IMG/VR virus record: IMGVR_UViG_3300008259_000562
Location: 1 to 36,247 of that record
Source of the DNA: a virus
Length of the DNA stretch: 36,247 bases
Strand: one strand, 5' to 3'
Part shown: positions 193 to 36,247 of the stretch, piece by piece
Position numbering within the stretch: position 1 is the stretch's first letter
Layout of the letters: each line of letters opens with the position of its first letter
The notes under the pieces: generated by a model
Databases searched by the model: none
The model's input: the letters and a program-made list of their open reading frames with translations, nothing else
Told to the model about the DNA's origin: nothing
Position numbers and translations under genes: made by a program

Positions 193-1370
193 TCTGAACG
201 GGGTTTAAATACGAATTTAGGCGCATCATGATGGTTGAATATAGCATACCTCATTGCATCCATTCCGTCATCATTCGCCTTAACTGGTTCTTCAATGATA
301 TTATCCTCTTTATCTTTCTTCCACTTGTAGGACTGTATCTCACGAATAAGATTAGTGCTATTGTGTGTCAAAGATAGGGGAAACGACTTAACTTTCACAA
401 TACCCGCCCAAACATCCTTTGAAGCTGCTTTAACACCCCTAAACCCACTACGGTATATTTCCTCTATTGATTTAGGTTCGGCGGCATCTGCCCATATTGT
501 TGCATTGCCGATGTTCAATGTCTGCATCTTGCGTACTAATTCAGTTAGTGTTAGATTTGACTGATAAATCAATTCTTCAACATAGTGCGCTCCCTCGTAG
601 TATTCAACCCTTACCAATGCGGCGGGGTGATTATATCCAAAGTCTAAGCCGTAAAACTGTTCGCCCTTACCAGGTAGTTGCGTAATAGTATTCCATTTTG
701 TGTATATAAGTTCCTTTGCTGCCCCTCTTTGCCCTAGACCGTACACTTTCCACATAAAGTCGTCAGGTAGGTCTTTAAACGCCTCTATTGCGTTTATTTG
801 GCTATCCGTTAGGTTTGTGCGGTTGTTTAGGTAGGTGGAATGTATTCGCTTGTTCTTAGGGTTATCGGCTACGGTATAAACCCATGACACGAAGTCGGCG
901 GGGTTCCAGTCAAGGAATATCTGCCCCGTTGTACGCATTGCTAATTGGTCAAACAATGCTTTTGTAAGTAGGTTGGCCTCGTTTATGAAAAGTATATCAC
1001 GCCCTGGTCCACGTGCTTTCCCTTCATCTTCAAGACCGAACAGTTCAATATAACTGCCATTCTTGAATGTGTAAATGAAATCGGAGTAGCTGAAGTTATT
1101 ATCATCCCATAATTCCAATTCGGTCATAATAACCTTGAAATCACGATATATACCCCGCTTTACGTGGGGTAATGAATGAGATACGCAAGATATACGCTTG
1201 TTAGGTTCGTTTACGGCTATCTGAACCAATAGCTGCATAACGGAGTATGATTTGCTTGAACGTGATCCGCCCTCATTGCAGATTATCGGCCAACCTTCGT
1301 TGTACGCTTTAAAGTTAGCATCGTAAACGGGTGTTACCTTAAGACTCTTTGATTGGCTCATTGCCTCCAT
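186..1370 (-). CDS. terL: Terminase large subunit
   Basis: This is the ATP-driven DNA packaging motor and headful or site-specific nuclease, which docks on the portal. The 394-aa protein has a Walker A-like GGSRSSKS at residues 34-41 and a Walker B ILFINE at 126-131. The RNase H-like nuclease acidic residues are visible in GLDFGYN (D243), WADAAEP (D295) and NDDGMDAMRY (D367-D371). The pattern fits the PBSX/Terminase_3 group. It overlaps the terS-like gene upstream by 32 nt. A second in-frame ATG (1361) lies right behind GGAGG and is a possible alternative start. Its stop overlaps the first glycosyltransferase gene, and not portal as is usual. Confidence 0.95.
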   Translation of the reverse strand: MEAMSQSKSLKVTPVYDANFKAYNEGWPIICNEGGSRSSKSYSVMQLLVQIAVNEPNKRISCVSHSLPHVKRGIYRDFKVIMTELELWDDNNFSYSDFIYTFKNGSYIELFGLEDEGKARGPGRDILFINEANLLTKALFDQLAMRTTGQIFLDWNPADFVSWVYTVADNPKNKRIHSTYLNNRTNLTDSQINAIEAFKDLPDDFMWKVYGLGQRGAAKELIYTKWNTITQLPGKGEQFYGLDFGYNHPAALVRVEYYEGAHYVEELIYQSNLTLTELVRKMQTLNIGNATIWADAAEPKSIEEIYRSGFRGVKAASKDVWAGIVKVKSFPLSLTHNSTNLIREIQSYKWKKDKEDNIIEEPVKANDDGMDAMRYAIFNHHDAPKFVFKPRSEW

Positions 1371-1671
1371 CTATTACATAGTTTATCTGTATAGGCACTA
1401 ATGCCCCAGAATGTTCAATCTTTTGGTTTGCTTTGCCGTATGCTCTATCCAATAGTAATTCTGCCGCTCTAACATCTCCTTTGGTAGCTTTTGCCCGTAA
1501 TGCCATAAGTATTGCTTTAGCTGCGCTTATGCCGTCTTTATCCTCGGCTAATACTTCTGCAAGTAGTTGCTTTAGTTCAGGTATGTCCTTTGATCTACCC
1601 TTTGGGTTTCCGCTTTGCCCCTTTACAAAAGGCTTTGCCCCTGGTGGTGTAACTCCTTTTTTAAATGGCAT
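1339..1671 (-). CDS. terS: DUF5681 protein, probable terminase small subunit
   Basis: This 110-aa protein carries the DUF5681 signature near the N-terminus (KGQSGNPKGR, residues 18-27), followed by a helical region (about 30-85). DUF5681 proteins are regularly found directly upstream of phage terL and are treated as small-terminase-like DNA-recognition subunits. The start ATG overlaps the end of the ParB-methyltransferase gene by 11 nt, and its own end overlaps terL, so the three genes are translationally linked. Sequence alone does not prove DNA binding. Position and family make the packaging role likely. Confidence 0.8.
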   Translation of the reverse strand: MPFKKGVTPPGAKPFVKGQSGNPKGRSKDIPELKQLLAEVLAEDKDGISAAKAILMALRAKATKGDVRAAELLLDRAYGKANQKIEHSGALVPIQINYVIDGGNEPIKES

Positions 1672-2851
1672 TTCCGTTCTTTTTAATTGTTATACTTGGA
1701 TCTAACTTTCTCATGCGGTCAATAATTACTTGGCAATATTTAGGGTCAAGTTCCATGCCAAAGCATTTGCGGTTAAGTTGGTGGGCTGCTACCATTGTAG
1801 TACCTGAACCCAAAAATATATCCACAATTATATTAGCATCTTTACAAAATTCATTAATCATTCTACTAATCAATTTAGATGGCTTCATTGATGGATGTTG
1901 TCTATTTCTTGCCTCGTTAGGATCATCTTTACTTAAAAATCCAAACCACTCAAAATCTAACACAAATCTTTTATGTTTATTTAAAGACCAACATAATTCA
2001 AAACAATTGCCTATACCTCTTTGTTGTGCTTCGCTACTTCTTTTATTCCAAACAAGCCAACTTCCATCTTTGCCATAATTAGGCAATAAATCAACAAAAT
2101 AATCTGCTCCCCATACAAATATTTCTTTTGTTTTAGGGAATGAAGCAAATATTGTATTTATTAATTCAGGTGTAAAATCTTCATTATCACCTATAATTTT
2201 ATCATACTTGTTACCTGTCTTATTACCTTTAAAACCAATAGAATTTTCACTTCCTTTAATTTTTGAATAATCAGTATCTAAAAACATTCCATAAGGCGGG
2301 TCGGTAAACACCATATCAGCCTTTTGCCCATCCATTAACCTTGCAACCGCATCACTATCCGTACTATCCCCACAAAGCAACCTATGCTCTCCAATTTCAA
2401 ACAAATCGCCTAATACTATATCCGTTTCAATTTGATCGGGTATTTCATAATCATCCTCCTCTGCTTCGGCTTCTACCTTAAACTCCTTTGGTATATCCAA
2501 CCCCCAATCTTCTAACTTCTGCACATCCCAATCGGATTGCAACTCATCCCAATTCCATTCTCCAAATCCTACGTTATCCTTAATTAAGAACTGCGCCTTT
2601 TGTTCTTCTGTCCAATCGTCTGCTATTATTACTGGCAATTCCTTTAACCCTATTTCTTTTGCCGCTTTAAGGCGCATGTTGCCGCCTAATACAACAAGTT
2701 TACCATCTGTATCGGTAAAGCAAACCAACGGCCGCTTTTCAAGCATTTCAGGAAAGTCCTTTAACGATTGAACCAACTTAGTAAACTTATCGTCTTTTAT
2801 TACCCTTGGGTTTTTCGGGTTGCTTTTTATTTCTGCAATGTTTCTGTTCAT
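1661..2851 (-). CDS. ParB-like domain fused to DNA adenine/cytosine-N4 methyltransferase
   Basis: The 396-aa protein has an N-terminal ParB/Srx-like domain (residues about 1-100, with GGNMRLKA at about 56-63) and a C-terminal amino-methyltransferase. That part carries catalytic TDPPYG (about 183-188) and the SAM-binding loop IFLGSGTT near residue 345, the beta-class order (catalytic motif first). Such fusions are common in phages and usually methylate phage DNA against host restriction. The ParB part may set DNA specificity. The listed start ATG (2851) is preferred over an in-frame TTG nine bases upstream because a perfect Bacteroidota promoter ends 6 nt before it. The gene begins beside an iteron-like array. 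No partner restriction enzyme is visible. Confidence 0.9.
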   Translation of the reverse strand: MNRNIAEIKSNPKNPRVIKDDKFTKLVQSLKDFPEMLEKRPLVCFTDTDGKLVVLGGNMRLKAAKEIGLKELPVIIADDWTEEQKAQFLIKDNVGFGEWNWDELQSDWDVQKLEDWGLDIPKEFKVEAEAEEDDYEIPDQIETDIVLGDLFEIGEHRLLCGDSTDSDAVARLMDGQKADMVFTDPPYGMFLDTDYSKIKGSENSIGFKGNKTGNKYDKIIGDNEDFTPELINTIFASFPKTKEIFVWGADYFVDLLPNYGKDGSWLVWNKRSSEAQQRGIGNCFELCWSLNKHKRFVLDFEWFGFLSKDDPNEARNRQHPSMKPSKLISRMINEFCKDANIIVDIFLGSGTTMVAAHQLNRKCFGMELDPKYCQVIIDRMRKLDPSITIKKNGNAI

Positions 2852-2857
2852 ATAGTC

Positions 2858-2888
2858 CAAAGTTAAGCCAAATTATCAAATCGGCAAA
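2858..2888 (-). promoter_or_regulatory. Bacteroidota-type promoter for the ParB-methyltransferase/terminase operon
   Basis: On the minus strand there is a -33 TTTG (2888-2885), a 19-nt spacer and a -7 box TAACTTTG (2865-2858), matching TTTG-N17-23-TAnnTTTG. The ATG follows only 6 nt after the box, so the mRNA may be leaderless. Confidence 0.7.
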
Positions 2889-2905
2889 GGGTAAAATACC
2901 GGTTT

Positions 2906-3102
2906 GGTAATAGGTAATAGGTAATACTCTGTATAAAGTATAGGTATATATATATTATCTAGTATTATTATGGTTTTTACTATTACCTTATTACCTTGCG
3001 TTTAATCGTTTGATTATTAATTAGTTAAGAGGTAATAAAATGGTAATAGCTTATTACCAAAAAAGGCATAAAAAAACGCTTTGGTTATTACCAAAACGCT
3101 TT
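2906..3102. repeat. GGTAATA iteron-like cluster, candidate replication origin or control region
   Basis: Nine perfect GGTAATA heptamers occur in this AT-rich gap between helicase and ParB-methyltransferase. Plus-strand copies start at 2906, 2913 and 2920 (three in perfect tandem), 3031 and 3042. Complementary copies (TATTACC) start at 2981, 2989, 3052 and 3086. A direct repeat AAAACGCTTT lies at 3073-3082 and 3093-3102. Clustering beside replication genes suggests an origin or an operator. That is inference. Confidence 0.6.
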
Positions 3103-3110
3103 CTTTATTA

Positions 3111-4445
3111 CTAAACTTTCTTATAATGCTTATCATCAGCTTTAATAATATACTTACCCTTATACTTTTGCCTAAATGTTATTAGGAAGTATTTATTAGA
3201 GCATTTCAACTGTACGCATATATCAGCCGCATCCTTAGCGGTAAACTTATCCGGCAATGCATTAAATAGTTCCAACTGCTTACCCTCAAGGTCTGTTTGA
3301 GTGCTATTGTTTATTTCAGTTAGCAATTGTACGGCTTGATTCTTAAAGTAATAAAATACCTTTTCGGCGTTTTGTACATCAACCACATCAATAACCGGTG
3401 CTTTATGGTTTCTAATAATTGAGCATATTAATGTGATTCGGCTATAATAAGCAAACATTTTACCTAAATAACCAATTAACAGTTCGCTAACATCTCCCTC
3501 CCTTCTATTCTTAATTATTACATTGCTTTCTGCTGTTATCCGGTTTCTTATTGTATTAAATAATACTTTTGCTTCGTCTGTGAATTTTACCCATCTTGGA
3601 TTACCTTCTACATAATAAACCCCAATACTAAACAAATGCTCTATCAATGACTGCCAGTAAACGCAAACCCTACTTTTTTGGCTAAAGACATCTCTATTCT
3701 CATTTAGTTCTACATAATCGGATGATACAAATAAAAACCTATTGAGTAAGCCGGATTCAACTGCTTGTTTATTAAACATCTCGTTTATTCGCTTTGACTG
3801 CATACCGGTTAAAACGCTAATAGCCGGATTAGTTACCCTAGTCTCTAATGTTGGGTCTTTGCGAAGATCATCTATTGTCTTACCGTTCCAAACATTATTC
3901 CAAAAGTCTACCGAATTATTATCCTTAGCGTATGAACCGCCCTGGTATAACTTCTTACCCTCGTCAAAGTAAACCCCGAAACCGGCGTGGTTGGTAGATG
4001 CGTATTTGGTAATGGCTTCCAATGTTGCTCCGGATGCAGAACGAATAATACGAACCGGTCTTGGTTCTGTATAAACGGTATTGTTCGCTTTGGCTCTCAT
4101 TCTTTCTACTTCCCAATCTTTCTCTTTGGTAATATATTCCTTATACAACCTATCCGCTAAAGGCTCTATAATATCCCCGAATACTAAATCGTATGCCTTT
4201 GTCTTGCCGATTGAAGAAGGGCCAACCATCATACAGTATAGTATAGATTTCATTTCCCCATTTAATTCAGTTGTGTGCATATTGCCTGACAATGATGCAA
4301 CCGCCCATAAAGCAGATAAGGCAATATAATCAACCGGCAAAGAATATTCTTTAGCAAGGTCTTGAAAAGATTGCGCTACAATAGGTTCAAAGATCTCTAA
4401 AGGGAATGAATTGTTTTGCTTTTGTAATTTTAAATCAATAATCAT
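3111..4445 (-). CDS. DUF3987 family replicative helicase/ATPase
   Basis: This 444-aa P-loop protein has a Walker A GPSSIGKT near residue 75 and a Walker B-like VYFDEG near residue 160. The overall pattern is that of DUF3987, found with primases in Bacteroidota phages and integrative elements. It starts one base after the stop of the VirE_N primase gene, so the two are a translationally linked pair that probably act together as primase-helicase at the phage fork. The region downstream of its stop is the iteron-like cluster. No other replicative helicase or DNA polymerase was recognised in the window, so the phage probably relies on the host polymerase. Confidence 0.8.
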   Translation of the reverse strand: MIIDLKLQKQNNSFPLEIFEPIVAQSFQDLAKEYSLPVDYIALSALWAVASLSGNMHTTELNGEMKSILYCMMVGPSSIGKTKAYDLVFGDIIEPLADRLYKEYITKEKDWEVERMRAKANNTVYTEPRPVRIIRSASGATLEAITKYASTNHAGFGVYFDEGKKLYQGGSYAKDNNSVDFWNNVWNGKTIDDLRKDPTLETRVTNPAISVLTGMQSKRINEMFNKQAVESGLLNRFLFVSSDYVELNENRDVFSQKSRVCVYWQSLIEHLFSIGVYYVEGNPRWVKFTDEAKVLFNTIRNRITAESNVIIKNRREGDVSELLIGYLGKMFAYYSRITLICSIIRNHKAPVIDVVDVQNAEKVFYYFKNQAVQLLTEINNSTQTDLEGKQLELFNALPDKFTAKDAADICVQLKCSNKYFLITFRQKYKGKYIIKADDKHYKKV

Positions 4446-6799: not shown

Positions 6800-7444
6800 T
6801 TAGAATAGTTGTGTTTTGTCTGTTAAATATAAGCTATTTAATATTTCTTTACATAATTCTTTTGGTATGATTGATCTATCATAGCTTCCTTTTCTTCCTT
6901 GAGTTCCAGTTTTACTACCTCTCGGTGCAGCTTCATGATGGCATTTTTTATTACCGTTAAAGCATTGCGGTTTTGGTTGCCATGTTAATGAGTTAGTCCA
7001 TATATCAGTAGGCTTTGCTCTATTATCCCCGTATCTGCAATACCAAACTGTATGTCGTTTAAATTCTTGCATAAATGGCATTTTGCGAAGCATCCCTCTG
7101 GGGTTTTCAATAAAGAATACTAATTCAGGATTAATCAATAACCATTTCTTTATTAAAGATATAAAATGCTTATTTACATTATCGCACTTACGAGCGTATG
7201 CCGTCTTAGGTTCAGTTTTGTTTCTATGATGACTTATAGCTGCAATAGTGTAAGTAGTGCAATCGGGAGAAGCCCATACCATATCAGGAATAAATGGAAT
7301 ATGATTAAGCGTTAATTCTTCAATATCAACTGTTAAATCAATACCGTTAAATATTGCCCAATCAACACTAAAAACATTCATTCCTAATGATTCAGCTTCT
7401 TTGCCTATACTTCTTGATCCTGCAAATAACTCTAGTACGTTCAT
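6800..7444 (-). CDS. C5-cytosine methyltransferase-like protein
   Basis: The 214-aa protein has a DNA C5-methyltransferase layout. Motif I-like LELFAGSRSIG is at residues 3-13, a catalytic-loop-like ASPDCTTYT near 60 takes the place of PPC, and motif VI-like FFIENPRGML is near 110. The C-terminal half is short with several Cys/His residues (about 155-175) and no full target-recognition domain was recognised. Phage proteins of this type are annotated as Dcm-like methyltransferases. The nucleophile Cys is present but the usual Pro before it is Asp, so activity or target may differ. The ATG overlaps the stop of the DnaA-like gene (ATGA). Confidence 0.65.
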   Translation of the reverse strand: MNVLELFAGSRSIGKEAESLGMNVFSVDWAIFNGIDLTVDIEELTLNHIPFIPDMVWASPDCTTYTIAAISHHRNKTEPKTAYARKCDNVNKHFISLIKKWLLINPELVFFIENPRGMLRKMPFMQEFKRHTVWYCRYGDNRAKPTDIWTNSLTWQPKPQCFNGNKKCHHEAAPRGSKTGTQGRKGSYDRSIIPKELCKEILNSLYLTDKTQLF

Positions 7445-25258: not shown

Positions 25259-25605
25259 AACGCATCACTATAAGCCGTTATTTGCCAATATTCGTATCGT
25301 TGGTCTATATCGTGTACGCTGTGAATCAAATATGTTTTACCATTGAATACAATACGCCAATCTTGTGCTAGGGGTATTTCTTGTACACGAATAATGAATT
25401 GAATCGGTTGACTAAACTTAACAGCCGCTTGTTCTAATTCTCTGCTTCCTCTATTAGGGTTCGCCTGACACCATACGGTATAATCATTACCCCACGAAGT
25501 AGTGCGTCCACCCCTACCATCGCTTGTATACGTTGGCTGTTGTAGCGTTAAGCGGTCTTTTAAGTTACCCGCTACTATGTAGTTTTGTCTATGGTACTTT
25601 ATCAT
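25255..25605 (-). CDS. Head closure / head-tail joining protein (SPP1 gp16-like)
   Basis: The 116-aa protein has the head-tail joining pattern: AGNLKDRLTLQQPTYTSDGRGG near the N-terminus, then TVWCQANPNRGSRELEQA, IQFIIRVQEIPLAQDWRIVFNGKTY and QRYEYWQITAYSD. It closes the portal channel after packaging. The ATG at 25605 is chosen because it overlaps the upstream stop as ATGA. Earlier in-frame codons would run back inside the connector gene. Confidence 0.8.
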   Translation of the reverse strand: MIKYHRQNYIVAGNLKDRLTLQQPTYTSDGRGGRTTSWGNDYTVWCQANPNRGSRELEQAAVKFSQPIQFIIRVQEIPLAQDWRIVFNGKTYLIHSVHDIDQRYEYWQITAYSDAL

Positions 25606-26117
25606 CTCTTCCATTTTTGTGCGATGGCAATCACGCCCGGAGCGTAAGCATCCGATGGTTGGTCTCCGCGGTTGGACCACCAAAAACATACTTGCATCAT
25701 TATCGCTATCTGTAATTCTTCAGGACACTCCCCATCCGCATAACCCGCTGTATAGGTCGCTTTGGTGTATATTACGGGTTGGGGAATGTACAAGAAGTCT
25801 AAACCTCTTGTGGTAATCTCTTGCGTAACGCCTTCGGTATCTACAAAGGTCGGTGTACCTGTTACTGGACCAAACGGTAATTCCATATTACCTTGTGGGT
25901 TGGTAAGTATGGCAACGATATTGCGTGGGATAAGTGAAAGCCCCGTATATTGTTCAATCTTGGTACGTGCTGCTCGTATCCACAACGCAAATAAGGTATC
26001 TTGGTCTGCAGATGTATTTTCAGCCCTACAATAGGCCTTAGCTTGTGCAACGGTAACTGGGCCGTTTATATAGCCTACTTCGGTGTTGGTATAATCTAGT
26101 ACAATGTTGTATGCCAT
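25602..26117 (-). CDS. Head-tail connector (HK97 gp6-like)
   Basis: The 171-aa protein shows the gp6/adaptor layout: GPVTVAQAKAYCRAENTSADQD, ALWIRAARTKIEQYTGLSLIPR and a late helix CPEELQIAIMMQVCFWWSNRGD. The adaptor ring docks below the portal. The ATG overlaps the stop of the GT4 glycosyltransferase gene (TAATG), so a glycan gene and a connector gene are translationally coupled. Confidence 0.85.
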   Translation of the reverse strand: MAYNIVLDYTNTEVGYINGPVTVAQAKAYCRAENTSADQDTLFALWIRAARTKIEQYTGLSLIPRNIVAILTNPQGNMELPFGPVTGTPTFVDTEGVTQEITTRGLDFLYIPQPVIYTKATYTAGYADGECPEELQIAIMMQVCFWWSNRGDQPSDAYAPGVIAIAQKWKR

Positions 26118-27100
26118 TATTTATGTTTATGCTTATCTACAAATTTCTTTATCCATTGTGCGAACCGTTCCAACTTTGTAGGGTCGGAAAGTTCCTTTGC
26201 TCGTTTCCTTGCTGCATCACTTGCGGCTGTATATTCTTTCTTACCTTGTAATTTTTCAATCTCCATTATCCACGATTCTATGTCGTTACGTTGTACAAAG
26301 ATACCACTTTCATTAAGGTTCTCTTTTAACCCAAATGTAGGGGCTGCAATGACTGGAATACCGCTGCACATTGCTTCGGTTGCAACCATGCCCCAACTCT
26401 CATAATCGGATGGCATTAATAGTATTTTAGTTAGCTTGTACACCTCTCTTATATCCGTTGTATTCTCCATTACCGTTACATTCGGCAAAGCCCCTAAGCC
26501 GTATTTAACAGCGTAATTATCCATGTTTATTACTGGCTGCGTATCATCGGTGCTAATGTACTGCGTACCGTAAGAACCTAGAACCTGCAGGAACTTTTGG
26601 TTAGGCATCCGCTTGGCTATCTCGTGGAATATCTTACCGCCTTTGTTTTCGTTGCAGTTTATTAGGGTAATGTATTCCCCCGTTGATCCGTTGTAGTAAT
26701 CGTAATCAATCGGTGGTGTAAGTACAAAACCATCATTTTGCCATTGTTTCATGTCTTTGGCTGCTTCGCTGTTATACACTACGCCAATGTTGGGATTCTC
26801 TTGTACCGTTGGGTAAGCAAATGTGTTGTGCATTATCCAAATTAACGGCTTATTGCCTCGTAATATTAACGCTTCCTTAACTACATCAAGTTGACAGATA
26901 ACTAATTCGGCTGTCCTTAGTAGACTACTGCATCTTGGGATAACTTTAACGCCATCAAATTCGTATTCTGTTGCTACATTCTTGCAAACTACAATACATT
27001 CATGCTCACTCTGTAAATAGGTTACAATCGTATGCAGCATTGCCGTATCGCCTTTATTATGTGTCGGCTTGTAGTGGGGGCAGTAGAATACTATTTGCAT
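26117..27100 (-). CDS. GT4-family glycosyltransferase
   Basis: The 327-aa retaining-type (GT-B) enzyme has an N-terminal Rossmann part (VFYCPHYKPTHNKGDTAML) and a C-terminal donor domain with LMPSDYESWGMVATEAMCSG (E-x7-E-like motif near residues 234-250), followed by IPVIAAPTFG. It would transfer a sugar from a nucleotide-activated donor. The acceptor is unknown. Embedded between hypothetical genes and the connector genes with overlaps on both sides (10 nt and TAATG), it is part of the structural operon. Possible targets are virion proteins or the host surface. Confidence 0.85.
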   Translation of the reverse strand: MQIVFYCPHYKPTHNKGDTAMLHTIVTYLQSEHECIVVCKNVATEYEFDGVKVIPRCSSLLRTAELVICQLDVVKEALILRGNKPLIWIMHNTFAYPTVQENPNIGVVYNSEAAKDMKQWQNDGFVLTPPIDYDYYNGSTGEYITLINCNENKGGKIFHEIAKRMPNQKFLQVLGSYGTQYISTDDTQPVINMDNYAVKYGLGALPNVTVMENTTDIREVYKLTKILLMPSDYESWGMVATEAMCSGIPVIAAPTFGLKENLNESGIFVQRNDIESWIMEIEKLQGKKEYTAASDAARKRAKELSDPTKLERFAQWIKKFVDKHKHK

Positions 27101-27913: not shown

Positions 27914-29110
27914 TTAACTCAAAGCCTCAACTATTACCGATAATTCCGTTACTGTTATGTTAGTAGCAGTTGTTGAGTTCTCTACAAATATTTCAATATA
28001 ATCATTGGTTACCAATTGCAATATCGCCTGAATCTTACCACCCTCTGCTCTACCACTACCGCCCGTTGTAATATAAACCTCTGATTCAGTTAGTATAGCT
28101 CCATTCTTGGCAATATAAAGCCCTATTTGGTTGTTATTGCCCGATGTGCAACTAAGTACCGCCGAAACGCTAAATGCTCTTGTTATTGCCCCCGTATAGG
28201 TAGCACGATTATTGGTGTTGGTAAACTTCTGTGTTACTGATTGACTTGTAGTCGTTCCCGCTACTTTATAAGCAACCCCTGAACTTGCTACCGTTGTAGC
28301 GGTTGCGTTGTTGTTCATTGTATAGTAGGCTATTTCAGCACTATTGTTTATACCCCTATTGTTGCTGAACAACGCTTTGTTATCGGTATAAGCTACCCCC
28401 GTTGTATAAGTACCGCCACCGCTAAAGTTTACTGTATCTAGGATATACCCCTCAACGGGTATGGTTGCAGATGAACTAACATTAATACCCGTTTCACCAC
28501 TAAGTATCACAAACGCAGAATAGATTATCCTAAACCGTCTTGTTATGGTTGCAGTTGATGGAATGATTATACTTGTTCCCCCCGCTTTACAATCAAATAT
28601 TGTTTGAGCAAATCCAATCGTGCCTACTGAACCATCAAAGGTTAACCCTTGTGTATTCAAGAAACCACAATCCGATGCAATAAAGTTGGTATAATTAGCA
28701 ATCGTTCCAACGGTGTTTGAATCAATCACATTAACCCCAAACCAATCCAACGCTTGGTTAGCGTTTCCGTTTGCGTTAAGGTTAAATACTATATCCGCTT
28801 CAAATGCTATTGAGCGAATGGGTAAAGACCATGCAGAAGTTATTAAAGCCGTTCCCGTTAACCCCGTAGATTTGATACGGCAATTTTCGGATGAACCACC
28901 TAAAATAGTTGTGTTTTGACCGCAAACTAATCTACTACCTAATAAGTCTATTGTAGTTGTAAAAAAGTAAGTTGTATTATCTTCTAAGGTAATTACACCG
29001 CTAACTGACTGTGGCAACTTTGCCGTACTGTCAACTATTACATAGTCAACAACCCTTGTTAATTGACTGCCAATAGCCGCCCAATCGCTAAATAGTTGTT
29101 GTACACTCAT
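27914..29110 (-). CDS. Beta-helix/jelly-roll fibre or capsid decoration protein
   Basis: In this 398-aa protein, residues about 20-270 are a repetitive pectate-lyase-like beta-helix (GVITLEDNTTYFFTTTIDL, LGSRLVCGQNTTILGG and repeated V/I-x-N turns). Residues about 285-398 look like a C1q/TNF-like jelly-roll head (YTGAITRAFSVSAVLS, QIGLYIAKNGAILTESEVY and a final TELSVIVEAL). It lies just downstream of capsid and not with the tail genes and has its own terminator, so a head fibre or capsid decoration is more likely than a tail spike. A depolymerase activity cannot be excluded. Confidence 0.65.
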   Translation of the reverse strand: MSVQQLFSDWAAIGSQLTRVVDYVIVDSTAKLPQSVSGVITLEDNTTYFFTTTIDLLGSRLVCGQNTTILGGSSENCRIKSTGLTGTALITSAWSLPIRSIAFEADIVFNLNANGNANQALDWFGVNVIDSNTVGTIANYTNFIASDCGFLNTQGLTFDGSVGTIGFAQTIFDCKAGGTSIIIPSTATITRRFRIIYSAFVILSGETGINVSSSATIPVEGYILDTVNFSGGGTYTTGVAYTDNKALFSNNRGINNSAEIAYYTMNNNATATTVASSGVAYKVAGTTTSQSVTQKFTNTNNRATYTGAITRAFSVSAVLSCTSGNNNQIGLYIAKNGAILTESEVYITTGGSGRAEGGKIQAILQLVTNDYIEIFVENSTTATNITVTELSVIVEALS

Positions 29111-29626: not shown

Positions 29627-30820
29627 CTATAAAGTACCTAAAGAAGCTGATGCAGCTAACATTAAGTTTATTTCAGTTTGGCACTCAATACGTGCAGTAA
29701 CTTGGTTCTTCTCAAAGTTAGTACCGTTCTCGTAGCTTAACTCAATCGCCAAGCCTTTAACTTGTACACGCTCAATGAAGTCGTTATCAATTAACAACGC
29801 TTGACCGCTTGTAGCCCAAGAAGCAGCAACTACTGGAACACCCATGATAGTGATGCCTTGACCTGGTAACTGTACCAATCCCGCACCCGCATAGTATCCG
29901 TTGGTGTAAGTAGACTTAACCAAGCTACCCATATCAGCGTGAGAAACGATGATAGAAGATACGCCGTAGTTAAGGTCTTGTTGTGCAGTAATGAAGTCAA
30001 TCAACTTCTTAACCTTGTCTGTTTCAGCAGAAGTATCAGCAGTTGCAGCACTAGTTACAGTTGCATAGAACAAAGCGTTCTCTTTCTTGTAGTAGTCACG
30101 CATTAACATTCTTGGTAAAGTACCTTGTAACCAAGGCAATGATGTTGCCATTTGCTTGGTAAAGTTTACAAAACCAGCGATGTATTGTTGAACTACTTTA
30201 GTTTCGCTTAATGCGTAAGTATTCTCACCTTTGGTTGAACCTTCAGACTGAACAGCGATATTGTTACCAGTTGCAGTTTCCTTGTAGAAAACATACAAAC
30301 CAGTTTCGGTGTTCAAGGTAGGAACTAAATCTCTAAAGTTCACTTTCTGTGAAGGTAAGATAGCTTGACGAGGGCCGTAAGAAGCTACTGGATCACCAGA
30401 AAGGTTGTTAGTTAATCCCATTGCTTTTGCTTCGTCAGCACCGAAAATGCGCTTCACTTCAGGTAGTTCAAAACGGATAGACTTCTTAGAACGTAGTTCT
30501 TTTACTAACTCACCGTCAACACCTTCAGCACCAAACTTGTATTGGCTAAGTATGTCGTTGATTCCTTCGTTTAAAGACTTTTCTTGAGCAGCAACATTAG
30601 GCTTACCCTTAGTTACGAACTCGTCGTATTGTGCTTGTAACGCTTGTTTAGCTTCTGCTATTTCAGTTGCAGAACCTTGTTTAATCGTTTCGCTCAATTC
30701 AGCCATTTTAGCTTCCATTGCAGCGGTGGTTTCTTTACTCTTGGCTTCTGCTTTGTTAATCACATCAGCCACAATTGAAGTAAGGTTTTTAACCTCTACT
30801 TGTAATTCGTTATTTTCCAT
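29627..30820 (-). CDS. Major capsid protein, HK97 fold
   Basis: The 397-aa protein has the HK97 gp5 organisation: an N-terminal coiled-coil delta domain (about 1-100, rich in Ala/Glu/Lys/Gln) that the protease would remove, and a shell domain from about residue 120. The shell domain contains FRDLVPTLNTETGLYVFYKE, the spine-helix region MLMRDYYKKENALFYATV and a late VPVVAASWATSGQALLIDND and LAIELSYENG. Codon choice is more uniform and less AT-biased than its neighbours, as expected for the most abundant protein. It overlaps the protease gene by 11 nt and has a strong terminator behind it. Confidence 0.93.
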   Translation of the reverse strand: MENNELQVEVKNLTSIVADVINKAEAKSKETTAAMEAKMAELSETIKQGSATEIAEAKQALQAQYDEFVTKGKPNVAAQEKSLNEGINDILSQYKFGAEGVDGELVKELRSKKSIRFELPEVKRIFGADEAKAMGLTNNLSGDPVASYGPRQAILPSQKVNFRDLVPTLNTETGLYVFYKETATGNNIAVQSEGSTKGENTYALSETKVVQQYIAGFVNFTKQMATSLPWLQGTLPRMLMRDYYKKENALFYATVTSAATADTSAETDKVKKLIDFITAQQDLNYGVSSIIVSHADMGSLVKSTYTNGYYAGAGLVQLPGQGITIMGVPVVAASWATSGQALLIDNDFIERVQVKGLAIELSYENGTNFEKNQVTARIECQTEINLMLAASASLGTL

Positions 30821-31569: not shown

Positions 31570-32472
31570 TTAAAAATTGTCGTTTTCAATGCTGCTTATT
31601 AGTTCGCTTATGAGCATATTGCTAATACTGAACGATGCAGCTAACGTGGCTATTCGTAAGAATTGATTACCCGCTTGTGGTGCAACCCTTGACATTGGTA
31701 TTGGTTGCCCTAATGCATCCCGCAAGGGAACAAATGCAACGGTGCAACGGCAATTGCAAACGTTACCCGCCGAAGCGGTTGGGTCACCAGGGTATTGCAT
31801 TAAATCAATCGTTTTGGTAGATGGAACTACAAACCCTTCATTATATCCAACCTCACGCCCGTTCATGTGTAAATGGTCGTATTGATCACGTGGTATGCGG
31901 CGGGTTCTGTTATCGTTTGCGCTAATCCATTTCTTATTAACGGCTATATCTAATTCTGCCGCCGAAAGCATTGCACCCGCATTAGCCGCTTTCATTGTTT
32001 CGGTTCGTACAATCAATTCAGCCCTTGCTCTTGTTATATCTGTTTTCTTTAGTGCTTGAACGGTTTTCTTTATCCCCCACCCCTCGGCGTTGGCTTGTTC
32101 TAATACTTGCGCTATCTGTTTCTTTGTGGTGTTGGTTATCGGTGTAACGGCTTGACTAAGCAAGTTCTGTCTGTAATACTCATTAACCATCCATTGTAAC
32201 TTCTCCGTTGGGCTATCAAACCCCTTGCGAAGTGAACGGCGTATTTGTTGACGAACATAAACAGCGTTTTGTACCCCCGCATCTTCGTATATCTTGCGAA
32301 GCGCTTTGATTAACGGTAGCTTAGGCAAATCTGTTACCGTTATGCCGTTGGCATAATTATCGGCGAAGTAGTTTATTTGGTCACGAATGGCACGATAAAC
32401 CGCCTCACGATACTTATCTTGTACGGAAGTAATTAGTTTAAGAAATCGCTTCTGTTGGTTGGTCATAGTCAT
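31570..32472 (-). CDS. MuF/SPP1 gp7-like minor head protein
   Basis: The 300-aa protein has a helical N-terminal half and the typical minor-head signature at about 150-245: ELIVRTETMKAANAGA, NKKWISANDNRTRRIPRDQYDHLHMNG split around D-x-R-TR and H, and QYPGDPTASAGNVCNCRC with paired cysteines. These proteins attach to the portal and may enter the host with DNA. It overlaps the portal gene by 35 nt. Confidence 0.88.
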   Translation of the reverse strand: MTMTNQQKRFLKLITSVQDKYREAVYRAIRDQINYFADNYANGITVTDLPKLPLIKALRKIYEDAGVQNAVYVRQQIRRSLRKGFDSPTEKLQWMVNEYYRQNLLSQAVTPITNTTKKQIAQVLEQANAEGWGIKKTVQALKKTDITRARAELIVRTETMKAANAGAMLSAAELDIAVNKKWISANDNRTRRIPRDQYDHLHMNGREVGYNEGFVVPSTKTIDLMQYPGDPTASAGNVCNCRCTVAFVPLRDALGQPIPMSRVAPQAGNQFLRIATLAASFSISNMLISELISSIENDNF

Positions 32473-33883
32473 TCAGTCCGTTAGGAATGTTAATCGGTGC
32501 GGGTGTAATTACTTCGTCTAAGGTTGTTGAACCACTACCGATAATGATAGAGTCTAATTGCTCGGTACTATACCCTTCGGTTGATTCGCCTAATATCTCT
32601 AACTTTCTGCCCGTCTTAATTGGTGCATCTTTCAGCCAACGTACTTGTTTCTCTTTGTCCTCTTGGAGTTCACCGTAAACACTAATATCAAAATCAACAA
32701 CTGTTTTAGTACCTCCCCAATCTTTCATTAATTTGCGGTTAATTTGATCCCGCAAATCTGCCAACAATGGAATAGCGCAACGGCTTGTTAGTGCTTTTTC
32801 AGCTTCAGGCATACCGTTGTATGTCATGCCGCCTTTTACGCCTAATAATGCAGACGGAACACCGTAAGCATTACATAATGCTTGAATATCATAACTTTCT
32901 GCATTAAGTAAATCTAATTCAACTGGGGTTAATCCTAATGGAACATAACCCATTTTATAGGCTGTTGTTTCAACTTGGTTTACATTTGTTGAACCCTGAT
33001 TCCTTGCTAATGTTTTCTTAATATCAATAACTTCTTGAAATGATAGGTTAGGGTCAAACTTTTCATCATCCATAAACAATAATCCTTTAGGCCCTCCGTT
33101 TTGGTAGTTACTTACCGCCGCTTGTTTGCCCTCATTTGACCTTGTTAATACTTTTGCGGCTGCTTTAAGTGGAGAAAACCCGTATAATTGGCTGCCCACT
33201 ATATCCCATTTAGGGTTCGTGTACTTATCATGCAAAACTTCTTCAAATGTAAAATTCTTTACATACTGCATCAATAATTGATAGGCAACGGGAATATTTG
33301 GGAACTGCTTGTCATCCATCACGATAGACATATATTGAGCGGGTAAATTCCATAATTCCAACGGTATATTTTTGTTTATCCCCGCTGTAATCTGTTTGCC
33401 GTACAAATAACCGTTGCCCGTTGCTAACTTAAATACACAATGCCCATCTATTATATCTTTCCATGAATCAATAGGGTTAGGGTATTTAAGTAATTCAGTT
33501 ATTCTGCCGCTTACTTTAACAAGTTCTAACGCTTTAGTTCTAATATCTAAAATTTCCCTTTGCGTAAACATAGCGTCTTTTTGGCTTGTAATGGCTATGT
33601 AACGCTTGTACTGTTCTTCGTCTTTGACCTTATATTCTGCCCAAGGCGCGGCCTTTGCTTTATCCGTAATCATTCGGATAATTGAATAAACTATATCGTT
33701 AGCACAATAACCTGAATCTATTTGCTCTTTTGCACTGCTTCCTTGCCATGTAATTAGTCCGCTATTTATTTCTTGCAGCTTTGGTAGTTGTTGAACCGAT
33801 ACAACTCTTGATTGCGGCGTTGCTGTATTGGTTGGTAAAGGAACTTTCTCAATTCGCTTTATGTCAAGTCCGAATAACTTCAT
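32438..33883 (-). CDS. Portal protein
   Basis: The 481-aa portal has the HK97/phage_portal pattern: YCANDIVYSIIRMITDKAKAAP near the start, LEKYPNP-like ELLKYPNPIDS (about 130-141), GNGYLYGKQI, a VGSQLYGFSPLKAAAKVL segment and the late GVPSALLGVKGGMTYNGMPE. It forms the dodecameric DNA channel. The start ATG at 33883 (MKLFGLDIK) is preferred over a TTG at 33913 because the promoter box lies between. It is separated from terL by the glycan cassette. Confidence 0.93.
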   Translation of the reverse strand: MKLFGLDIKRIEKVPLPTNTATPQSRVVSVQQLPKLQEINSGLITWQGSSAKEQIDSGYCANDIVYSIIRMITDKAKAAPWAEYKVKDEEQYKRYIAITSQKDAMFTQREILDIRTKALELVKVSGRITELLKYPNPIDSWKDIIDGHCVFKLATGNGYLYGKQITAGINKNIPLELWNLPAQYMSIVMDDKQFPNIPVAYQLLMQYVKNFTFEEVLHDKYTNPKWDIVGSQLYGFSPLKAAAKVLTRSNEGKQAAVSNYQNGGPKGLLFMDDEKFDPNLSFQEVIDIKKTLARNQGSTNVNQVETTAYKMGYVPLGLTPVELDLLNAESYDIQALCNAYGVPSALLGVKGGMTYNGMPEAEKALTSRCAIPLLADLRDQINRKLMKDWGGTKTVVDFDISVYGELQEDKEKQVRWLKDAPIKTGRKLEILGESTEGYSTEQLDSIIIGSGSTTLDEVITPAPINIPNGLNDYDQPTEAIS

Positions 33884-33913: not shown

Positions 33914-34543
33914 TTATATTAGCCCGCTAAGGTAGCTTTGATCGTGGCGGTCTGTTTTAAAGTCAGGTCTATTGCTTCCATTTGTTGAATGGTGGAAACT
34001 ATTATTTCGGCTTCCTTCAATCCATTGCCTTACGATTGTTTCTGTTATCGGGTTGCTGAAATCAAACATAATGCAACACGCCATTATCTGCTTTGCTTCC
34101 ATATCTTGCAATCCCGTCTTTTGTACGGCGTAATCGCTTATCCAATGTTTAAGCGGGTGTCCTTCGTTATCCCACGCTAATATCCCACGTTGGTTACATT
34201 TCTCCCATAGTGGTTCGGGGTTCTTCATTATCCGCATAGTACTATCGCACCACAATACACGCTGGTAACCTTTCTCAAACGCTTCCCAAACGGCGTAAGG
34301 CTTGAACTGGTAGGGCATATCCTTGTGCTGCCATGCAACGCCGAACTCTTTAGTTTCTGGCCATCCTTTAGTTATCTTAACTCCTAAGTATTCATCTACA
34401 TACCCATCCACGCTGCGGATAAGATAATCACCGTACCAATTACGGCCGTTGTTCGTGTTAAGGGAACTACGGATAAGGTTTAGTTGTGCAGCATTATAAT
34501 TTTCACGCCCTTGAGAGGCTACGGATACTAATACTTCTTTCAT
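33914..34543 (-). CDS. Putative GT-A-type glycosyltransferase (209 aa)
   Basis: It starts MKEVLVSVASQGRENYNAAQ. The core YQRVLWCDSTMRIMKNPEPLW (about 85-105) looks like the DxD-type nucleotide-sugar site of GT-A enzymes. Late DRHDQSYLSGLI resembles the C-terminal acidic DQ motif of GT8-like and related proteins. I did not identify a named family, so the assignment is by pattern and by the neighbours. The ATG at 34543 overlaps the FkbM gene stop (ATGA). Confidence 0.6.
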   Translation of the reverse strand: MKEVLVSVASQGRENYNAAQLNLIRSSLNTNNGRNWYGDYLIRSVDGYVDEYLGVKITKGWPETKEFGVAWQHKDMPYQFKPYAVWEAFEKGYQRVLWCDSTMRIMKNPEPLWEKCNQRGILAWDNEGHPLKHWISDYAVQKTGLQDMEAKQIMACCIMFDFSNPITETIVRQWIEGSRNNSFHHSTNGSNRPDFKTDRHDQSYLSGLI

Positions 34544-35148
34544 CGTGCCATTATTACGTTTTCCATACATTCGTATATCTTCTTATTTAACCCCGCTTTA
34601 CCGCAATAGTCTATTATTGCGTTGCGTACATCCCTTACACTGTTATGCTCAATACATACCATTTGCGTGTGCTTCAGGTCTATCTGCCTTAACACATCCA
34701 AATCCAACCCCTCACAATCAATGGTAATGAAATCGTAAGTGTCTATAATTTCAGCGTATGTTACTGCTTTAACTTTAATCTTCTTAAATTCTGTTGTTGC
34801 AGCCCATTTAGGTAACTCGCTTACTACGGCTGTAGATAGTAGCGAAGTATCTCCCTTGCCTAAGTGGCTCTCCATATCGTAGAACTCAATGCGGCCTTTC
34901 TCATTAGCTATTGCTACGTTCAAGCATTCAACCAAATCATTATCCTTGTACAAGCTGTTTAGCTTCTTGAACGCTGTCGGTGATGGCTCAACCAATAAAC
35001 CAGACCAATCCTTGTATTCAATCAATGCTCTTGAATTGGATAGTGTTTGCCCATCATTTGCACCAATATCCAACAAATGACCTGGCGCATGGTTAGCGAA
35101 GTAGTTTAGGATGTAATCTTGTTCTAAATTCTGCGAATATTTGGTCAT
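34540..35148 (-). CDS. FkbM-family SAM-dependent methyltransferase
   Basis: The 202-aa protein has a class I methyltransferase with FkbM features: LDIGANDGQTLSNS (SAM motif I, about 22-35), LLVEPSPTAFKKL (about 50-62), VAIANEKGRIEFY, and the diagnostic FITIDCEGLDLDVLRQIDL (about 140-158). FkbM enzymes O-methylate sugars and related groups, often as the capping step of glycans. It is coupled to glycosyltransferase genes on both sides by ATGA overlaps. The substrate is probably the glycan they make. Confidence 0.85.
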   Translation of the reverse strand: MTKYSQNLEQDYILNYFANHAPGHLLDIGANDGQTLSNSRALIEYKDWSGLLVEPSPTAFKKLNSLYKDNDLVECLNVAIANEKGRIEFYDMESHLGKGDTSLLSTAVVSELPKWAATTEFKKIKVKAVTYAEIIDTYDFITIDCEGLDLDVLRQIDLKHTQMVCIEHNSVRDVRNAIIDYCGKAGLNKKIYECMENVIMAR

Positions 35149-35705
35149 GCTTTAACAGTTTGGTATAGGTAGAAGTATAAAGGCTTGTTAATATGCACCT
35201 CGGTTGTAAGTAACTTACGTTTATGTATCTCCGTTGCCCATGCGTAATCCTCTCCCATTGTTACGTTAGGGAATGGCACTTGTAATGCTATGCTTCTTTT
35301 AATCGGTGTTATATGGTTAGGGTATCGTAAGTAAACCTCATTACCATTCTCCCATACGGCTGTATATGGGTAATTAATGGATAGCCTAAACTCTTTGCGG
35401 TTTGATCCGTCTGTTTCCATCCACCCCCTGAAAGTAATACAATCGGGCTTTGACTTAGCGGCGTTAAGTATATCGGGAATATAGGTATCTGCTACCATAT
35501 CGTCATCGTCTAAGAACACGATATATTCACCTTGCGCTTGTTTCATTAGGTCATTGCGTTTCCTTCCCGTTGTTACCCTACCATCATCGGAGTAGGTAAG
35601 TATTTCAACCTCATTTGTCCGTTGTGGTGCAAGTGATGCTAGTAACCGTTTTAGCAGTCCTGACCGTTTAGGCATTGTAGGAATTAATATACTTAGGATA
35701 ATCAT
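35145..35705 (-). CDS. GT2-family glycosyltransferase
   Basis: The 186-aa GT-A enzyme has an N-terminal LSILIPTMPKRSGLLKRLL, the donor/metal site YIVFLDDDDMVADTYI (about 63-78) and an acceptor-side catalytic TMGEDYAWATEIHKR (about 148-162). It is shorter than many GT2 proteins (about 240 aa or more), so it may be a compact phage version. It starts 3 nt after the preceding glycosyltransferase stop and its end overlaps FkbM (ATGA). Cytoplasmic, no membrane helix seen. Confidence 0.85.
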   Translation of the reverse strand: MIILSILIPTMPKRSGLLKRLLASLAPQRTNEVEILTYSDDGRVTTGRKRNDLMKQAQGEYIVFLDDDDMVADTYIPDILNAAKSKPDCITFRGWMETDGSNRKEFRLSINYPYTAVWENGNEVYLRYPNHITPIKRSIALQVPFPNVTMGEDYAWATEIHKRKLLTTEVHINKPLYFYLYQTVKA

Positions 35706-35708
35706 GCG

Positions 35709-36247
35709 TTACGAATATACAGAACTCAACGGAAATCCCAAACTTTTTCTTTTCCTAAAGGTTCTTTCATCCTGACGGTAGTAATTCTGTGTCTTAATCA
35801 ACTGCGCATCTGGTTTCTCTCCAGTCCAAGCGGGGTGTTCGTGTTCAAATATATGTTGGTTTAAATACTTATAACAACCTAATTGCTTTGCCACATCCAT
35901 TGCCTCATTGTCCGACCATAAACTAGCGTAATCAGGATGGTAGATATAACCGAACCGTTTGTAGTAATCAATACCCATAATTGACATAGTAGCCAATCTT
36001 TCATTTACATACCCATCGGGCAAATGAAGAAACGTGTCGTTACCGCAATGCTCGGCAATAACCTTATCAAACCCTTTAACTGTGAATACTTGATCATCGC
36101 TAAGATTAACCAATATATCCCATCCGCTTTGCGGTACATCCCGATTGATAGCATCTATCTTGTTCTTGCTCGTACCAACGTGGATACTTACACGCTTATC
36201 CCATTGCATTTGCTTGAACTCATCGCTGTTGAGTGTAGCTGCATCAT
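35709..36247 (-). CDS. Glycosyltransferase, C-terminal part (runs off the window)
   Basis: The partial protein is open to the right edge. The visible frame reads DAATLNSDEFKQMQWDKRV and onward, 178 residues. GT2-like features are WDILVNLSDDQVFTVKGFDK (acidic DD site) and a late SLWSDNEAMDVAKQLG followed by IFEHEHPAW, as in GT-A acceptor regions. Its first 24 residues match the end of the fragment at 1-192. The joined protein would be about 218 aa. No membrane helix or signal peptide. Confidence 0.7.
   Translation of the reverse strand, partial: DAATLNSDEFKQMQWDKRVSIHVGTSKNKIDAINRDVPQSGWDILVNLSDDQVFTVKGFDKVIAEHCGNDTFLHLPDGYVNERLATMSIMGIDYYKRFGYIYHPDYASLWSDNEAMDVAKQLGCYKYLNQHIFEHEHPAWTGEKPDAQLIKTQNYYRQDERTFRKRKSLGFPLSSVYS
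36174..36247. repeat. Right copy of imperfect terminal repeat
   Basis: It pairs with 1-74 at 64 of 74 positions without gaps. See the left copy for the codon-level comparison. Confidence 0.85.

Follow-up and report, generated by a model that had tools for sequence, protein, structure and literature searches.

To our knowledge, the glycosylation of the phage particle by enzymes of the phage itself has so far been shown mainly in the mycobacteriophages. Glycosylated proteins have been reported in Che8, Corndog, and Myrna (PMC12363180; PMC11256854), and the products of Che8 gp110 and Corndog gp38 are named in one of these sources as essential for the glycosylation of the capsid (PMC12363180). 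The tail tube subunit of mycobacteriophages is also described as carrying glycans (PMC12619734). The glycosylation of the Che8 virion, to which gp108-gp110 are linked, is credited to Freeman et al. 2023 (as cited in PMC11256854, PMC12363180, and PMC12619734). In Che8, gp108 encodes a family-2 glycosyltransferase (GT2) fused to a methyltransferase, and its neighbours are gp109 and gp110.

The sequence analysed here (the window) is the whole of the 36,247 nt of viral DNA recorded as IMGVR_UViG_3300008259_000562, positions 1-36,247, which was compared with contigs of its relatives, designated by L-numbers, such as L018. The window encodes a GT2 that aligns with the N-terminal half of Che8 gp108 (36% identity over 150 aa, 94 bits). 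A search of 50,697 deposited phages with this GT2 recovered 59 records, all of them phages of Mycobacterium, Gordonia, or Actinoplanes, and the GT2 profile scored 125 bits against Che8 gp108, 157 against LittleE 15, 139 against Yvonnetastic 25, and 163 against Mareelih 91, in comparison with 8 bits for an ordinary GT2. Given that the same gene set recurs at head-gene sites in the relatives, the particle of this phage most likely bears a methyl-capped sugar chain that its own enzymes add; read from the genes alone, this phage-encoded virion glycosylation, probably of the capsid, is assigned a probability of roughly 70%.

The late genes are all encoded on the minus strand, from the terminase genes through the head genes to the head-tail adaptor, in the order terS-terL-GT1-GT2-FkbM-GTd-portal-MuF-protease-capsid. 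The probable small terminase subunit (terS; 1339-1671) is recognized by its position only, that is, the same place before terL in the relatives, and the large subunit (terL; 186-1370) matches PF04466 and PF17288. The junctions of the four-gene cassette that follows are tight, with a terL/GT1 overlap (ATGGTAA) at 192-186, a GT1/GT2 gap of 3 nt (35708-35706), and ATGA overlaps of GT2 with FkbM at 35148-35145 and of FkbM with GTd, which begins MKEV, at 34543-34540. The spacing between GTd and the portal gene (32438-33883; PF04860, 7e-30) is 30 nt. The initial annotation had placed this four-gene block between terL and the portal, within 33914-36247, and all of its genes and junctions exist. The coordinates, in turn, have been corrected, given that the three junctions within the block fall in that interval, but terL and the ATGGTAA overlap are found at the opposite end of the window.

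This arrangement is explained by the GT1 open reading frame, which is cut by the ends of the contig, its N-terminal part (1-192, with the ATG start at 192-190) continuing across these ends into the remainder (35709-36247), to give a joined product of 218 aa. The ends of the window overlap by 63 bp (1-63 and the repeat at 36174-36236), with six mismatches, all of them synonymous, at third codon positions, and in a single reading frame. In L018, one uninterrupted 654-bp open reading frame aligns with the joined GT1 across all 218 residues, at 89% identity, which, together with the synonymous overlap of the ends, establishes that the join is real. The genome of the window is thus circular or circularly permuted, the assembly mixes closely related variants, and GT1 crosses the junction. 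An imperfect terminal repeat of this kind, in which the contig closes across strain variants, would be overlooked by end detection of the IMG/VR style.

The first three cassette genes can be assigned to families from their sequences. GT1, a GT-A glycosyltransferase, matches phrog_14945 (2e-13), and the AlphaFold model made on its L018 orthologue has a predicted GT-A fold (pLDDT 92.5), to which the nearest structure is the WrtF fucosyltransferase (VIA-align Z 17.8, 192 residues, 2.6 A), with the polypeptide GalNAc-transferases close behind. The GT2 (35145-35705) matches PF00535 (6e-10) and phrog_14775 (1e-42), and the acidic motifs are invariant across the alignments of both GT1 and GT2. The FkbM-type methyltransferase (34540-35148; PF05050, 4e-16) is above the curated cut-off of its family, with 60 bits against 22.7. 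The fourth gene, GTd (33914-34543), yielded no significant match in sequence searches of Pfam, PHROGs, PDB, and the deposited phages, although its AlphaFold model (pLDDT 79.3) has a predicted GT-A fold, in agreement with the GT-A-like protein that had been proposed for this gene. The fold neighbours of GTd are BoGT6a, glycogenin, and the capsid glycosyltransferase of PBCV-1. The BoGT6a and glycogenin comparisons, which would be GT6/GT8-like and retaining, give a Z of ~11 over 152-175 residues, with many GT-A families tied, and the sugar specificity of GTd is not fixed by its predicted fold alone.

In alignments, the C-terminus of GTd is approximately 31 residues short in relation to its homologues. 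In L028 and L029, GTd is reduced to a vestige of 12 residues, and several of the contigs L033-L044 lack the gene, which is therefore the dispensable member of the cassette. The neighbouring portal gene (32438-33883) is only 69% identical to that of L018, while the flanking terL and MuF genes are 98% identical; to judge from these sequences, a recombination event that exchanged the portal may have clipped GTd, where the local exchange would end. The dN/dS values of the window against L018 or L029 are 0.04-0.12 for the cassette genes and for the GT4 gene described below, in the same range as terL, MuF, and the capsid gene, and the cassette is under purifying selection.

A fifth enzyme, missed by the initial annotation, is encoded away from the cassette, between the capsid gene and the head-tail adaptor (25602-26117; phrog_442, 6e-17). 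This GT4 glycosyltransferase (26117-27100) matches PF00534 (1e-15) with 57.9 bits against a cut-off of 26.4, as well as phrog_26352 (9e-59), and it contains the EX7E motif, with ESWGxxxTE conserved in the alignment. Four variable or small genes separate GT4 from the capsid gene in the window, whereas GT4 follows the capsid gene directly in most of the relatives. In the 80 loci fetched with the GT4 profile, GT4 adjoins the capsid gene and/or the adaptor in all 80.

The conservation of the cassette was surveyed in 92 GT1 contigs, a set composed of the best 80 of at least 433 profile matches in IMG/VR (where the GT4 relatives number at least 576), together with others. The full order GT1-GT2-FkbM-GTd is found in 59 of the 92 contigs, and the order of the block is kept among homologues that share 42-60% protein identity. 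In all of the 72 contigs that could be judged, GT1 is no more than 6 kb away from terS, terL, or the portal, with the other 20 being too short, and none was found to carry the gene elsewhere as unlinked cargo, the outcome that had been named in advance as contrary to a virion-linked role.

The block occupies the interval between terL and the portal in the window, L018, L030, L033, and similar loci, and stands before terL in most of the relatives. In the distant phages L245-L248 and L269, either FkbM or the series GT25-GTd-methyltransferase-FkbM-GT11 is found between the capsid gene and GT4, while in L258, GTd, GT2, an epimerase, and GT11 precede GT4. The survey thus bears out the conservation of the block and its order, but the insertion site alternates among the head-gene sites, and a fixed insertion between terL and the portal was rejected. 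The initial annotation had also relied on the tight coupling to the terminase as its key argument for a glycan that is built and capped in connection with the virion. This argument does not hold, since in the relatives the block can also precede terL, and parts of it can follow the capsid gene; the late, virion-linked building and capping of a glycan is favoured, instead, by the confinement of the genes to head-gene sites and by the homology of the GT2 to the Che8 gp108 locus.

The composition of these loci varies in other ways. The L258 locus (968-4350) contains the GT2, an epimerase/GDP-mannose-dehydratase-like gene, and a GT11 fucosyltransferase-like gene, as if it made its own nucleotide sugar. 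In most of the blocks that precede terL, one or two extra genes lie between GTd and terL (L056:12732-13944 and similar loci), one encoding a methyltransferase (PF08241), and the other a protein of 192 aa for which Pfam gives no match. Genes that resemble HNH homing endonucleases in their sequence are found within or beside the cassette in L033 (2727-3218), L041 (11897-12388), L030 (5994-6470), and L255 (910-1533).

Variable insertion sites, the entry of HNH-like genes into the block, and the truncation or loss of GTd are all features that would be expected of mobile cargo of little benefit to the phage, found among the head genes by chance. This explanation is nevertheless highly improbable, given the order that is kept over 42-60% protein identity, the purifying selection, and the confinement to head-gene sites.

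The distribution of GT4 provides a further comparison. A capsid profile led by a phage without the cassette was used to retrieve 80 loci, none of which contains either GT4 or the cassette, and one nested clade lacks both. In a rule-based count, the cassette and GT4 occur together in 26 contigs, neither is present in 34, and no contig has a split state, while the gene strings of the distant relatives L251 and L257 include GT4 without the four-gene block. Among the loci seen, the cassette implies GT4, and the reverse fails. When mapped on the capsid tree, the presence of the cassette and GT4 requires only two changes, with the joint absence amounting to approximately one event, so the evidence consists of a single joint absence in a nested clade, and not of many. 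The reading of a perfect co-occurrence as an independent correlation was dropped, given these two changes and the presence of GT4 alone in L251 and L257.

In the mechanism proposed here, a short glycan would be assembled on one of the structural proteins by soluble enzymes from the packaging and head block. The major capsid protein (29627-30820) is the most likely acceptor; its gene comes after that of the prohead protease, and its sequence can be aligned with the protein annotated as the capsid protein in Flavobacterium phage 11b. The first sugar would be added by the capsid-linked GT4, the chain would be lengthened by GT1, GT2, and (where it is intact) GTd, and the FkbM enzyme would O-methylate the glycan as a cap. 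From these genes and their placement, we infer the acceptor, the order of the steps, the sugars, the capping, and the timing. When the capsid proteins of GT4-bearing phages were contrasted with those of phages that lack the enzyme, no position held across the clades, and the identification of an acceptor residue by this approach was rejected.

The acceptor may also be a different virion protein, such as the tail tube, or the spike-like protein encoded between the capsid gene and GT4 (27914-29110), a variant that overlaps with the reading of virion glycosylation as a whole. The spike-like product, which matches a tail fibre family (phrog_24754, 5e-6), has a composition rich in S, T, and N, and, with this position, it is the second candidate in the window, while the glycosylation of the mycobacteriophage tail tube subunit (PMC12619734) provides a precedent for the former. 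The spike-like gene is, however, variable or absent where the relatives have GT4 immediately 3' of the capsid gene, and an acceptor other than the capsid protein is somewhat unlikely. At this position, L018 has an unrelated gene of 404 aa, and most of the relatives lack the gene.

The initial annotation had left the choice between a structural protein and the surface of the infected cell. The GT2, GT4, and FkbM families are frequent in the pathways of surface polysaccharides, and WrtF, the nearest structure to the GT1 model, has been solved in complexes that contain oligosaccharide acceptors, so the enzymes might alter the glycans of the host surface, either masking receptors or excluding superinfection, with the late-gene placement serving for expression only. 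Against this, no strongly hydrophobic stretch of 19 residues was found in GT1, GT2, FkbM, GTd, or GT4 (maximum 1.28), and the five enzymes have no transmembrane segment. A pattern scan of cellular genomes, which may miss distant homologues, matched GT1 in only 2 of 84,980 species, in each case as a lone gene, while GT4 keeps to the capsid-adaptor site, and homology links the GT2 to the Che8 locus. A role at the cell surface is thus weakened, and appears distinctly unlikely, while the virion is favoured, with GT4 beside the capsid gene as the best pointer to the acceptor. The two cellular matches, which are the only ones of the scan, are GT1 relatives with 49% identity on Synechococcus MAG contigs (L274:3205-3855 and L275:8001-8651).

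The cassette and the head genes may share a transcript, a presumed unit delimited by a promoter-like site and a hairpin, both of them consensus matches only. The former is a Bacteroidota-type promoter pattern at 2888-2858, near the start of the methylase-terS-terL run (the window has six such patterns in total, against 1.9 expected), and the latter is a terminator-like hairpin of 10 pairs at 29606-29581, 3' of the capsid gene. The methylase of this run (1661-2860) is a fusion of a ParB domain with an N6-N4 DNA methylase, located just 5' of terS and conserved in the relatives, and a second DNA methylase is encoded at 6800-7444.

The presence of two DNA methylases might suggest that the enzymes glycosylate the DNA of the phage, or a modified base, and phage glycosyltransferases are described as able to hypermodify DNA (Pyle et al. 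2024, cited in PMC12619734). This reading was rejected as very remote, given that the window genes that were compared with Pfam and PHROGs include no TET/JBP, hydroxymethylase, or thymidylate-synthase-like gene. In addition, the methylase to which Pfam gives a type belongs to the N6/N4 kind, and the placement among the head genes would be left unexplained.

The host is probably a member of the Bacteroidota, given that portals like that of the window occur in Flavobacterium phage 11b and the Cellulophaga phages, and that the exonuclease gene shares 78% DNA identity with Flavobacterium phages. In phage 11b, the portal directly follows terL. A search of the literature found no report of an FkbM-containing cassette in flavobacterial phages.

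It is possible, albeit at somewhat less than even odds, that these loci represent a large clade of uncultivated phages, probably of Bacteroidota, with a modular capsid glycotype locus. This would consist of a conserved, capsid-linked GT4 and an exchangeable set of genes (GT1, GT2, GTd, FkbM, GT25, GT11 fucosyltransferase-like, and nucleotide-sugar epimerase-like) at three head-gene sites, so that the capsid sugars would vary between phages as the O-antigens do between bacteria. If so, the glycosylation of the capsid would not be a peculiarity of the actinophages, but would be widespread in a second large group of phages from the environment, with at least 433 GT1 and 576 GT4 relatives in IMG/VR. 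It would also provide a testable set of genes, and a natural comparison with the sister clade that lacks the system. The question would then be why an environmental phage, with no antibodies to evade, pays for a coat of sugar on its capsid.

The closest of the known systems, that of Che8, also combines phage-encoded glycosyltransferases with a methyltransferase, and shares with the window the homology of the GT2. In Che8, however, the methyltransferase is a fused TylF/Methyltransf_24 domain, rather than a separate FkbM gene, and the enzymes are encoded at the right end of the genome, rather than among the packaging and head genes. The GT1, GTd, GT4, and FkbM profiles have no significant match in Che8 gp108-gp110, and no homologue of gp110 was found among the cassette and GT4 profiles, which indicates a variant that would work like the Che8 system, and not the same system. 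A GT25-type enzyme of the Pfam family of gp110 (PF01755) is present at the capsid site of L248 only among the relatives of the window.

The chlorovirus PBCV-1, which is, unlike the window, a virus of eukaryotic algae, also encodes soluble enzymes that glycosylate its capsid; the GTd model matches the fold of the PBCV-1 capsid glycosyltransferase (structure 2p72) with a Z of 10.3, a score equalled by many GT-A families. The gtr seroconversion clusters of prophages likewise encode glycosyltransferases, including the GT2 fold, but they do so with a flippase (GtrA) and a membrane-anchored bactoprenol glucosyltransferase (GtrB), while the five enzymes of the window, whose genes are part of the head block, include neither a flippase nor a membrane enzyme, and the GT2 matches the GtrB-like PHROG with an E of 0.04 only.

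Among the actinophages, LittleE has the order capsid-GT2-kinase-methyltransferase-glycosyltransferase, followed by the adaptor, with its GT2 relative immediately 3' of the capsid gene, Yvonnetastic has its pair of genes, with a GT2 relative, just 5' of terL-portal, and TurkishDelight has a double GT4 between the capsid and tail genes. Related enzymes are thus encoded at the same types of position among the head genes of phages that are themselves unrelated. In Mareelih, the GT2 relative comes after the adaptor, while in Wofford a GT1 relative lies outside the head block. The first four of these phages have other hosts and other gene sets, and the system of the window is distinguished by a different set of enzymes, a separate FkbM gene, genes split over two head-gene sites, and a different phage lineage.
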